Below the pieces are notes generated by a model. The model saw only the letters and a list, made by a program, of their open reading frames with translations, was not told the DNA's origin and searched no databases. Below, piece after piece: positions 3,672 to 21,657 of a stretch of 33,293 nucleotides of DNA. This DNA comes from Gemmatimonadaceae bacterium (GTDB taxonomy: Bacteria > Gemmatimonadota > Gemmatimonadetes > Gemmatimonadales > Gemmatimonadaceae). How positions within the stretch are numbered: position 1 is the stretch's first letter; each line of letters begins with the position of its first letter. Location: the NCBI GenBank assembly GCA_025928335.1, contig JAICJQ010000029.1, positions 1-33,293 of the forward strand. The letters are read 5' to 3'. Made by a program: the position numbers and the translations under genes.

Positions 3672-3762
3672 GTCATCCTGAGCGAAGCGAAGGACCTACC
3701 GTCCGAACTCGGTTACTAACCAGGGAGGCTGGGTCCTTCGTCGCTTCGCTCCTCAGGATGAC
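3672..3762. repeat. Inverted-repeat pair between rodA and accD (short element, no gene)
   Basis: The left copy (3672-3699) begins GTCATCCTGAGCGAAGCG and ends GGACCTAC. The right copy (3731-3762) is its near reverse complement and ends CTCAGGATGAC. They are separated by about 31 bp of unique sequence. The outer ends share GTCATCCTGA with two other pairs in this window (19411-19835 and 21552-21657); the inner core differs by small changes in the GCGAAGCGA repeats. The pair begins 5 nt after the rodA stop codon. Transcribed from either strand it would fold into a long hairpin, so it may attenuate or process the rodA-accD transcript. No target-site duplication is visible. Confidence 0.85.
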
Positions 3763-18113: not shown

Positions 18114-18664
18114 ACTTCCATGATCTCGGCTTCTTTCGCCTTGATCAACTCGTCGACCTTGTGGATGTAATCGTCGTGGAGCTTCTGGAGGTCCTTCTCC
18201 GCGTGCTTCACGTCGTCTTCCGATACGCCCGCAAGCTTCTTGAAGCCTTCACGCGCATGGGTCCGCGCGTGACGGATGGCGACCTTGCCATCCTCGGCGT
18301 ATTTGTGCACGACCTTCACGAGGTCCTTGCGTCGCTGCTCGTTCATCGCGGGCAGGGGCACGCGAATGATGCCGCTCTGCGCCGACGGCTCGAGGCCCAG
18401 ACCGGACTCACGGATCGCCTTTTCGACGATCTTGATCTGACTCTTGTCGAACGGCGTCACGATCAGCACGCGCGGCTCGGGCGCGTTGATCGTCGCGACC
18501 TGGTTGAGCTGCATCTGCTGGCCGTACATCTCAACCCGGACCGTGTCGAGCATGCCGGGCGTCGCCTTGCCCGATCGCACTGAGGAGAACTCGTGCTTGA
18601 TGTGCGCGATGTCCTTGTCCATCGACGCGCGGGCGTCCTTCATGATTTGTTGAATAGAGCTCAT
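18110..18664 (-). CDS. frr: Ribosome recycling factor
   Basis: Splits post-termination ribosomes together with EF-G. 184 aa, the standard length. It contains the three-helix bundle sequence with [20 protein letters not shown], the hinge region around [19 protein letters not shown] and the C-terminal [20 protein letters not shown]. The ATG at 18664 overlaps the pyrH stop by 4 nt (ATGA), implying coupled translation. Confidence 0.97.
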
Positions 18665-19407
18665 CGAACGAGGGTGCCGACCCGCTCGCCGCGCACGGCC
18701 GCGACGATCGAGCCCGGACGGTGGATGTTGAGAACGATCAGCGGCAGCGAGTTCTCACGGCACAGCGTGCTCGCGGTCTGGTCGATGACCTTGAGCTCTT
18801 CCATGATCACGTCGCGGAAGCTGATCTCTTCGTACAATTTGGCGGTCGGGTCTTTCTTCGGGTCGGCCGAGTACACGCCCTCGACGCTCGTCGCCTTGAT
18901 GATGACGTTGGCCTTGATCTGAATGGCCCGCAACACCGCCGCGGTGTCGGTCGAGAAATACGGGTTGCCGGTTCCGGCGGCGAAGATGACCGTGCGCCCT
19001 TTTTCGAGATGTCGAATGGCGCGACGGCGGATGTACGGCTCCGCGAGCTCCTCCATGCGGATGGCCGTCATGACTCGCGTATCGATGCCCTTCCGCTCGA
19101 GGACGTCTTGCACGGCGAGGGCATTGATCACGGTGCCCAGCATGCCCATGTAGTCGGCGGCGACGCGGTCCATGCCGGTCTTCGACAGCTGCGAACCGCG
19201 GACGATGTTGCCGCCGCCGATCACGAGGCCGAGCGACACCCCCGTCTGGGTAACCGAGAGGATCTCATCGGCGAGGCGGTCGACGACGTCGAAGTCGTAG
19301 CCGAAGCCTCGCTCGCCGGCGAGGGCCTCGCCGGAGACCTTGAGGAGAATCCTGGGGTATTTCAGGCTGTTTGAAACAGCGGGTGACGTCACGGCGGTGG
19401 CTGTCAA
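18661..19407 (-). CDS. pyrH: UMP kinase
   Basis: Phosphorylates UMP to UDP with ATP; hexameric amino-acid-kinase-fold enzyme. About 248 aa. Recognised by [59 protein letters not shown] and YSADPKKDP. The start is uncertain. TTG at 19407 has an AGGA 7 nt upstream (19418-19415), and that AGGA is inside the inverted repeat of the neighbouring element. GTG at 19392 is an alternative without a visible Shine-Dalgarno. Either way there are 12-17 extra residues before the conserved domain. Confidence 0.94.
19366..19380. other. 15-bp palindrome at the pyrH 5' end
   Basis: GCTGTTT-G-AAACAGC is a perfect 7-bp inverted repeat around a single central base. It lies within the first codons of pyrH as annotated, or directly in front of the conserved coding region. 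It resembles a repressor half-site pair, but could equally be coding coincidence. Confidence 0.35.
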
Positions 19408-19410
19408 GCA

Positions 19411-19448
19411 GTCATCCTGAGCGAGCGCAGCGAGCGAAGGATCTACTG
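19411..19448 (+). repeat. Left inverted repeat of the GIY-YIG element
   Basis: 38 bp, from GTCATCCTGAGCGAGC to GCGAAGGATCTACTG. It differs from the reverse complement of the right copy at two positions (GC versus AC after CCTGA, and AAGG versus AGGG). Read on the minus strand, its AGGA is the probable ribosome-binding site of pyrH. Confidence 0.9.
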
Positions 19449-19497
19449 GGCATTCTTATGATGCTAACTCGGCAAGATTTGCAGGACAAAGTAGTGA

Positions 19498-19795
19498 ATG
19501 CGTCAGTACTACACGTACATCCCCCGCCAGTCACTCCCGCAGGCTTTATGTCGGGATGACAAACGATCTGGTGAAGCGCATGTATTACCATCGATCGGCC
19601 ACCGACAGTTTTGCAACACGCTACCGAACCTTGCGACTTGTGTACTTCGAAGTTCATCGCCATCCAATGAATGCCATCGTTCGGGAAAAGCGGATCAAAC
19701 GCTGGCTTCGGTCGAAAAAGATCGCCCTCATCGAAACGGCAAATCCTGCGTGGGACGATCTGGCTGAAGGCTGGCTTGACCTACCTCTCGGTTAG
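19498..19795 (+). pseudogene. Small GIY-YIG nuclease (YhbQ/UPF0213-like), frameshifted
   Basis: Homologue of single-domain GIY-YIG endonucleases of about 80-100 aa. The start frame gives MRQYYTYI, then loses the family pattern. From 19531 the frame shifted by one gives SHSRRLYVGMTNDLVKRM, continuing to REKRIKRWLRSKKIALIE and NPAWDDLAEGW, which ends at 19795. Deleting one C from CCCCC (19521-19525) restores a 98-aa protein with the YTYI...LYVG motif, an Arg near residue 27, catalytic Glu63 (REKRIK) and the Asn of NPAW. Both halves are well conserved, so either the break is recent, the gene is phase-variable, or the base is a sequencing error. The intact downstream frame is 19556-19795. AGGA lies 11 nt before the ATG. 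Confidence 0.8.
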
Positions 19796-19797
19796 TG

Positions 19798-19835
19798 CAG
19801 TAGATCCCTCGCTCGCTGCGCTCGTTCAGGATGAC
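19798..19835 (-). repeat. Right inverted repeat of the GIY-YIG element
   Basis: 38 bp, reverse complement of the left copy except at two positions. It ends CAGGATGAC. Its last base at 19835 is also the final base of the tsf stop codon (CTA on the plus strand at 19835-19837), so element and gene touch with no spacer. Confidence 0.9.
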
Positions 19836-20431
19836 TACTCCGAACCGAGCTGATACCGGACGAACCGGCGAACCTGGACGTTCTCACCCGTCTTCGCCGA
19901 GACCTCTTTGACGAGATCACCAATCGACTTCTTCGGATCGCGCACCCACATCTGGTGCATGAGGGCGACGTCCTTGTAGAAGGCTTGGACCTTCCCCTCG
20001 ACGATCTTGTCGATCATGTGCTCCGGCTTGCCCTCGTCCTTCACCTGCTGAACGAAGATGCGGCGCTCGGAGTCGACCTTCTCCTGCGGTACCTGATCCT
20101 TGTCCACCGCCAACGGCGCGGCAGCGGCGATATGCTCGGCGAGGTACTTGCCGAGTTGCTGGAAGTCCTCCGTGCGCGCGACGAAGTCGGTCTCGCAGTT
20201 GATCTCGACCAGCACGGCGATCTTGCCATTGTGGTGGATGTAGCTGCCGATGACGCCTTCTTTCGTCTGGCGGCCCGAGCGCTTCTCGGCCTTCGCCGCC
20301 CCTTTGGAGCGGAGCAGCTCGACCGCTTTGTCGAGTTCGCCGTTCGTCTCCTCGAGCGCTTTCTTGCAATCCATCATGCCGGCTCCGGTTCGCTCACGGA
20401 GGGCGGCTACGTCTTTCGCGGTAATTCCCAT
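19835..20431 (-). CDS. tsf: Elongation factor Ts (short form)
   Basis: Nucleotide exchange factor that recharges EF-Tu. 198 aa, the short one-core form as in Thermus, versus about 283 aa in E. coli. It begins MGITAKDVAALRERTGAGMM and contains DCKKALEET, the TDFVAR motif that contacts EF-Tu (residues 81-86), and a C-terminal VRRFVRYQLGSE. The frame is open back to 20476, but the ATG at 20431 is the conserved start. It follows rpsB across a hairpin-rich 116-nt spacer. Its TAG stop is completed by the adjoining repeat element. Confidence 0.96.
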   Translation of the reverse strand: MGITAKDVAALRERTGAGMMDCKKALEETNGELDKAVELLRSKGAAKAEKRSGRQTKEGVIGSYIHHNGKIAVLVEINCETDFVARTEDFQQLGKYLAEHIAAAAPLAVDKDQVPQEKVDSERRIFVQQVKDEGKPEHMIDKIVEGKVQAFYKDVALMHQMWVRDPKKSIGDLVKEVSAKTGENVQVRRFVRYQLGSE

Positions 20432-20462
20432 TGGTCTGATCCAGCGTACGGTGTTCGTGGAA

Positions 20463-20491
20463 ACGCCGCCGGGCAATGCGTCCGGCGGCGT
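20463..20491 (-). terminator. Strong hairpin in the rpsB-tsf spacer (possible attenuator)
   Basis: ACGCCGCCGG (20463-20472) pairs perfectly with CCGGCGGCGT (20482-20491) around a 9-nt loop. On the transcribed minus strand only TTT follows, a weak U-tract, so it is more likely an attenuator, pause or processing hairpin than a full terminator. The start of tsf lies 32 nt beyond it. Confidence 0.5.
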
Positions 20492-21551: not shown

Positions 21552-21657
21552 GTCATCCTGAGTGAGCGCAGCGAGCGAAGGATCTACTGTACCGGTATCG
21601 TGGCTGGCCACGCGGTAGAGACATTAGATCCCTCGTCGCTGCGCTCCTCAGGATGAC
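21552..21657. repeat. Inverted-repeat pair between rpsI and rpsB (short element, no gene)
   Basis: The left copy (21552-21589) starts GTCATCCTGAGTGAGCG and ends GGATCTACTG, 37 of 38 bases identical to the left repeat of the GIY-YIG element. The right copy (21622-21657) is the diverged reverse complement ending CTCAGGATGAC. The 32-bp middle contains a small GTGG-CTGG-CCAC hairpin and no coding capacity. The pair begins 4 nt after the rpsI stop codon. It looks like an internally deleted relative of the 425-bp element. Confidence 0.85.

Follow-up and report, generated by a model that had tools for sequence, protein, structure and literature searches.

The question raised by this locus is whether a small GIY-YIG nuclease gene enclosed by two inverted repeats is the partner enzyme of those repeats. 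REPs are widespread in bacteria, and the consulted parts of Di Nocera et al. (2013, PMC3733652) divide most of them into a GTAG and a CGTC superfamily: RAYT genes go with GTAG REPs, while CGTC REPs ‘apparently lack a dedicated transposase’ and have no associated transposase genes, which leaves one half with a known partner enzyme and the other half without. The window analysed here is a 33,293-nucleotide stretch of a Gemmatimonadaceae genome (4.5 Mb in 281 contigs, estimated 79% complete), in which a 425-bp unit at 19411-19835 lies in the gap between pyrH and tsf. The unit, its flanks and two gene-less repeat pairs elsewhere in the window are as follows.

18661..19407, minus strand: pyrH (UMP kinase), flank of the insertion
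19411..19448, plus strand: left terminal REP arm, with tag GTC, hairpin and tail CTACTG
19498..19795, plus strand: GIY-YIG nuclease gene, frame-broken, with the MRQYYTYI start part in one frame and the remainder to the stop in another
19798..19835, minus strand: right terminal REP arm, 36/38 identical to the left arm
19835..20476, minus strand: tsf (elongation factor Ts), flank of the insertion
3672..3762: gene-less REP pair, REPIN-like, 91 bp, with arms at 3672-3696 (plus) and 3732-3762 (minus)
21552..21657: gene-less REP pair, REPIN-like, 106 bp, with arms at 21552-21584 (plus) and 21627-21657 (minus)

Alignment of the arms and a match of the enclosed gene to PF01541 (43.5-44.5 bits, above the cut-off) agree with the original prediction of 38-bp inverted repeats, identical at 36 of 38 positions, around a small GIY-YIG gene. 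The unit abuts the tsf stop codon, with the last base of TAG forming the outermost base of the right arm. In Pfam, the window protein matched GIY-YIG alone and is not a Y1/HUH tyrosine transposase; against NCBIfam it had no match at E 0.001, and three of four relatives gave weak, sub-cut-off matches to group I intron endonucleases. Across 84 aligned family sequences G, R, H, E and N are invariant, which we take to be the catalytic residues, and both tyrosines are near-invariant. The start of the window gene (from 19498) is out of frame with the rest, reflecting either a true mutation or an assembly error. The 425-bp copy had been proposed as the autonomous unit; because its reading frame is broken, it is not autonomous as read, and it is the only family copy found in its genome. 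In our best reading, the unit is probably a decayed copy of a compact mobile element some 0.4 kb long, whose lone GIY-YIG nuclease would cut and spread REP-ended DNA. The family is a candidate for the nuclease that partners GTCAT/CGTC REPs, much as RAYT partners GTAG REPs.

Within the window, the GTCATCCTGAGCG core has four matches with at most one mismatch versus 0.10 expected. GTCAT tags point outward in both gene-less pairs, whose arms, as delimited by the pattern, measure 25 and 31 nt (3672-3762) and 33 and 31 nt (21552-21657). The original prediction had the same repeat occurring twice more without the gene; its tags-outward pairing stands, but the pairs do not repeat the same 38-mer, each consisting of two differing hairpin variants. 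Among the six window arms, the tag is CGTC in three, TGTC in one and AGTC in two, and the tail is CTAC in four, CTAA in one and CCAG in one. Their stems comprise four or five outer pairs starting from AT, followed by a GA mismatch and further stem; with T-G at the fifth pair, the right arm of the unit fails a strict five-pair hairpin rule.

Using the pattern GTCATCCTGAG-N(8-20)-RGGAYC, with the backward pattern as control, we found 84 matches in the 4.5-Mb genome and none with the control. Of these, 56 form 28 close pairs with tags outward, and close pairs with tags inward number zero; the genome-wide count that had been proposed for this repeat therefore finds it both in excess and paired. 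As the pattern measures them, the 28 pairs have an inner spacing of 34-43 bp and a total length of 85-109 bp. Stems are diverse across the genome (for example, GAGCGAAGCGA, GGCCGCGAAGCGGCC and GGGCCGCAGGCCC), most being self-complementary by eye (uncounted), and many arms end in GGACC, whereby the outermost A-T pair is lost. The gene-less pairs look like shortened versions of the ends of the gene-bearing unit, since the inner flank ATCTACTG is common to the unit and several of the pairs. A 25-26-nt arm is joined to a 29-34-nt arm in 20 of the 28 pairs, and this asymmetry, in the window pairs and genome-wide, is as if the two ends had different roles.

Relatives outside the window were sampled with the family consensus as query and one genome per species, taking the best 80 of at least 506 confirmed; 290 positions in the same loci, 1.2-1.9 kb from the gene, served as controls. 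Inverted repeats scoring at least 16 enclosed the gene in 39 of these best 80 versus 0/290 controls, and at score 14 in 47/80 versus 2/290. A second test sought an outward GTCAY-tagged hairpin with a following C within 400 bp of the gene; such hairpins stood on both sides in 42 of the best 80 versus 0/290 controls, and on at least one side in 59/80 versus 13/290. A looser hairpin rule (GTC plus a 5-bp stem) recovered 52 of the best 80 on both sides but also 23/290 controls, and was replaced by GTCAY plus following C because it was too permissive. Among the 42 loci of the best 80 with hairpins on both sides, the median unit length is 400 bp. Inward hairpins were also seen in the best 80 (either side in 24, both sides in 9), as would result from a REP pair at each end of the unit, an arrangement present in two loci outside the 80 (L224, of Azospirillum lipoferum 4B AZO_p3, and L227).

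In total, 59 of the best 80 of at least 506 relatives show at least one of the two arrangements, inverted-repeat enclosure or outward hairpins on both flanks, and 21 show neither; several Bacteroidales loci are close kin, so that the 80 are not all independent. At least four (L112, L113, L146 and L184) lie in genomes also within the genome sets searched here. By phylum-level group, assigned by record title, the loci with either arrangement number 18/22 in Chloroflexota, 12/15 in Pseudomonadota, 9/11 in Bacteroidota, 6/9 in Patescibacteria, 4/6 in Gemmatimonadota, 4/6 in Bacillota, 3/3 in Desulfobacterota/delta, 2/3 in Armatimonadota and 1/1 in Verrucomicrobiota; neither arrangement was found among the best 80 in Acidobacteriota (0/3) or Actinomycetota (0/1). 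The association of gene and repeats that had been proposed as a check thus recurs in 9 of the 11 groups represented among the best 80, with dispersal of the flanking repeat established for the window's genome and phylum, not for the 80 loci. In the window's own phylum, the six Gemmatimonadota loci of the best 80 show enclosing inverted repeats in four and hairpins on both sides in none.

Such an association could be a coincidence if intergenic gaps accumulate repeats and small genes alike, and most described REPs are indeed intergenic in the consulted parts of PMC3733652. Outward enclosure in 42 of the best 80 stands against three controls with hairpins on both sides in 0/290, 0/27 and 0/24 loci, the 290 positions being the less fair comparison because they are probably more often coding than gene flanks. 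We therefore rejected chance clustering as an account of the association and give coincidence practically no credence. The 27 control loci are UPF0213-like sister genes from 121 genomes of the same order; none was enclosed by inverted repeats (1/27 at score 14) and one had an outward hairpin on one side, compared with inverted-repeat enclosure of 16/26 REP-type family genes in the same 121-genome set. UPF0213, to which the nearest solved structures (1zg2 and 1ywl) belong, shares the single GIY-YIG domain and a similar size with the REP-type family and differs in its lack of enclosing repeats in the order studied and in its separate tree branch: in a FastTree tree, one branch splits 27 UPF0213-like rows from 110 REP-type rows (node support after re-rooting, 0.196).

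The 24 control loci are RAYT genes, and bear on the view that a RAYT (Y1/HUH transposase) moves the REPs in trans with the GIY-YIG gene as a passenger. Consistent with that view, the window's genome has one Y1_Tnp gene (L081), and in the 121 genomes a Y1_Tnp gene is present in 11/19 repeat-bearing genomes versus 38/102 others, a difference that is not significant (p 0.13); the corresponding figures for the GIY-YIG gene are 13/19 versus 13/102 (p 1.4e-6). The L081 gene has GGGGTCAGACCC-type ends and looks like a TIRYT/TIRtron. From 31 RAYT loci of the order (L242-L271 and L081), seven incomplete ones were skipped; among the 24 scored, inverted repeats of score at least 16 enclosed 13, often palindromic repeats of another kind, while GTCAY hairpins stood on both sides in none and on one side in two. 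No Y1_Tnp match was found in the repeat-rich genomes G110, G066 and G097, and CGTC repeats are not associated with transposase genes in the consulted parts of PMC3733652. Since RAYT loci have their own inverted repeats and none of the 24 has GTCAY hairpins on both sides, the two enzymes appear to be paired with different repeat families within the same genomes. We set RAYT aside as the main explanation on the 0/24 result and regard it as very improbable.

The likeness to REPIN/RAYT systems is one of organization: short tagged hairpins, dispersed gene-less inverted pairs, a patchy distribution and a single small nuclease gene lying between copies of those repeats. The differences lie in the enzyme (GIY-YIG here, Y1/HUH there), in the tag (GTC as CGTC, TGTC or AGTC here, GTAG there) and in the lack of GTCAY REPs on both sides of any of the 24 scored RAYT loci of the same order. 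TIRYTs or TIRtrons, defined in the consulted parts of PMC3733652 as RAYT relatives flanked by terminal inverted repeats, likewise have a lone nuclease gene between inverted repeats, and these repeats can be dispersed as well, but the enzyme is of the Y1/HUH kind and the repeats are unrelated. GIY-YIG homing endonucleases and Penelope-type retroelements link a GIY-YIG nuclease to mobility; the present family differs from both in lacking an intron, a reverse transcriptase or a second domain, and in having REP hairpins as its ends.

We examined co-occurrence at the genome level in 249 genomes of the phylum, using a protein-profile search and the pattern GTCAYCCYGAG-N(6-20)-GARGGRYC, whose backward control gave two matches over all 249. 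A genome was counted as gene-positive if its score reached 75 bits, a threshold set once the scores were known so as to leave out the sister family (at most 64 bits); it also removes truncated gene pieces such as those in G075. The gene is patchy, being present in 32/249 genomes. At least two repeats were found in 23/32 gene-positive versus 17/217 gene-negative genomes (p 7e-15, odds ratio about 30), and at least 20 repeats in 11/32 versus 2/217. A within-genus permutation test over the 12 genera holding both gene-positive and gene-negative genomes gave p 0.008. The proposed co-occurrence of gene and repeats was thus borne out as enrichment, and the 17 gene-negative genomes with two or more repeats count partly against it. 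Among these, G127 has 40 repeats, G056 has 20, G063 has 16 and G049 has 12, although the assemblies searched are incomplete. Conversely, 9/32 gene-positive genomes hold fewer than two repeats of the searched pattern, and in two that are without it (G013 and G072) repeats of another type surround the gene (L069 and L075).

The patchiness of the gene also bears on whether the nuclease has a host or cargo function, processing REP hairpins in DNA or RNA (cruciform resolution or mRNA ends) without moving them. GIY-YIG enzymes include structure-specific nucleases, and the REP hairpin is conserved, both of which fit such a role. A gene with this function, however, need not sit inside a repeat pair in so many phyla, and the presence of this one in only 32 of 249 genomes, together with its absence at orthologous sites, argues against it. 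We consider a host function improbable.

Comparison of orthologous sites, as proposed with the original prediction, revealed relatives lacking the unit at pyrH-tsf, sufB-sufC and fnrL. Among 29 family relatives, the pyrH-tsf gap is at most 45 bp in 13 and 63-122 bp in five, and the tsf match ended early in 11. In G110, of the same genus, the gap holds a gene-less REP pair. In another member of the genus, G135 (L083), it holds a different palindrome, GTCCGTGGACC...GGTCCACGGAC, and the pyrH-tsf site may therefore be prone to insertions. In Azospirillum lipoferum 4B, a unit lies between sufB and sufC; 11 other Azospirillum records match 66-68% of the sufB-sufC query in two pieces, as expected without the unit, and it is absent from all three that were aligned. 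At the Sphingobium fnrL site, seven records align over the full length including the unit, and four match partly, in two pieces. Of the three part-matching records that were aligned, TomTYG72 has no REP, and TomTYG74 and TomTYG64 have a single hybrid REP (L237 and L238), tagged with GTC at each end, in the position that the complete unit occupies in relatives. The left half of the left REP is joined in this hybrid to the right REP, as expected from a deletion between the direct copies, two in number, that the palindromic stem provides. Target-site duplications were not readable in the Azospirillum sufB-sufC and Sphingobium fnrL alignments because the intergenic flanks differ too much.

The gene-less REPs at orthologous sites in two of three cases (the G110 pair and the TomTYG74/TomTYG64 solo hybrid) make a homing-type parasite the best rival: REPs would spread by other means, and the GIY-YIG gene would be copied into cut REPs through repair over the arms, which alone supply the homology. 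A solo REP could equally be a deletion product, because the stem, being palindromic, supplies a direct repeat at each end. TomTYG72 and the three aligned Azospirillum sites point to sites without any REP. A mere parasite, moreover, would not predict that gene-negative genomes are seldom repeat-bearing (17/217 with at least two repeats of the searched pattern). We judge this alternative unlikely and favour the reading in which the nuclease itself spreads the REP-ended DNA.

We examined covariation in 30 of 33 distinct 24-nt REPs from the best 80 of at least 506 loci. The tested fold consists of five outer pairs, a GA/GA mismatch, two inner pairs and a 3-nt loop, with 97.6% of cells paired. No slid version of the fold, and 0/500 shuffles, attained this pairing and the covariation score of 0.518. 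Two-sided changes occurred at 5/7 pairs, a number equalled by 31/500 shuffles, and the count of further pair types in the 30 REPs was not above that in shuffles. The outer five pairs had entered into the selection of the REPs, which leaves the two inner pairs as the only unbiased test: the first is GC in 17 REPs, AU in 11, GU in one and unpaired in one, and the second is paired in 26/30, without two-sided change. In some units the two arms have different stem sequences but the same hairpin form and tail (for example, L122, L129, L148 and L187); other units, such as L119 and L139, also have unlike tails. REP distance correlated with protein distance across 54 loci (Mantel r 0.34, p 0.001), a relationship that shared descent would explain as well as specificity does.

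On the basis of these comparisons, we propose an element whose only gene is a single-domain GIY-YIG nuclease and whose ends are two inverted REPs, each comprising an unpaired GTC tag, a hairpin and a tail beginning with C. In its commonest form the hairpin would have an outer stem of 5 bp, separated by a tandem GA mismatch from a short inner stem with a small loop. We infer from sequence that the nuclease recognizes and cuts such REPs and moves the DNA between them in cis and in trans. It would recognize the REP as a folded strand or cruciform together with tag and tail, and cut at the REP ends; this would free or copy the stretch between two REPs, which repair or replication by the cell would then move. 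Gene-bearing unit and gene-less pairs would both spread in this way because they have their ends in common and it is the stretch between REPs that would be freed or copied. GIY-YIG enzymes cut by hydrolysis, and re-joining would therefore probably depend on repair or replication by the host, in contrast to the covalent HUH/Y1 route that RAYTs take.

The repeats in the window are of a type related to CGTC REPs, not a listed family, as their GA mismatch and tail differ from CGTC-1 to 4. In the consulted parts of PMC3733652, the CGTC superfamily has the tag CGTC (also TGTC or CCTC), an 8-9-bp stem starting with AT and a CCA tail. Of the six window arms, four fit the tag (three CGTC and one TGTC); none has the 8-9-bp stem from AT, which is seen in L069, L224, L227 and L230, and all but one (CCAG) depart from the CCA tail, which is seen in L069, L173, L177 and L224. 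The tag, the start of the stem from AT and, in several lineages, a CCA-type tail are shared with CGTC REPs, while the window type differs in the GA mismatch between two short stems and its mostly CTAC tail. A further difference is that a nuclease gene is found here, as opposed to no associated transposase gene in the consulted parts of PMC3733652.

Repeats with these shared features enclose members of the same GIY-YIG family in eight loci (L069, L169, L177, L224, L227, L230, L232 and L233). Taxa in which the CGTC form encloses the family are Azospirillum, Shinella, Neorhizobium, Hansschlegelia and Aeromonas, besides a Neisseria gonorrhoeae record. Close CGTC variants enclose it in Sphingobium (stem starting with AC) and Novosphingobium (stem starting with GC). 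The family may accordingly extend beyond the window type: we see evenly balanced prospects that it is the missing nuclease of the whole GTC/CGTC REP superfamily, dRS3 included, and forms a class of autonomous elements of about 0.4 kb using a hydrolytic route. Candidate elements of this size were seen in nine bacterial groups among the best 80 of at least 506 relatives and, if autonomous, would to our knowledge be among the smallest autonomous elements known. REP-ended DNA would then be moved hydrolytically rather than by a covalent route of the HUH, DDE or recombinase kind. This would bring in a nuclease fold, and probably a chemistry, that is new among bacterial mobile DNA, and give meaning to many small ‘GIY-YIG nuclease family protein’ annotations (at least 506 relatives). 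The presence of the gene inside CGTC-type repeats across phyla makes the partner-enzyme question directly testable at the bench.

Among the matches listed in a search of the open-access literature, none linked GIY-YIG to REPIN, RAYT, REP or dRS3 by title or start of abstract, and those with both GIY-YIG and REPIN all concern restriction enzymes. A later paper with the terms CGTC, RAYT and REP (PMC6006769) has CGTC in its reference list only and, in its consulted parts, no GIY-YIG. The repeat strings themselves, searched in the same literature, led to papers on unrelated subjects by their listing, where the strings are probably primers.

Of 37 replicon records, 12 were examined, and nine of these have an enclosing repeat of score at least 16; L222, L226 and L229 are without one, and in L223 and L225 the arms do not clearly belong to the GTC type. 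On a Planktothrix plasmid (L222:1501-1785), the family member lies, without an enclosing repeat, between a type IIL restriction gene (MmeI) and the DISARM gene drmA. Neisseria dRS3 is equated with CGTC-1 in the consulted parts of PMC3733652, and the Neisseria gonorrhoeae record (L227:1260-2110) holds a family member inside dRS3-type repeats, unannotated in the table used.
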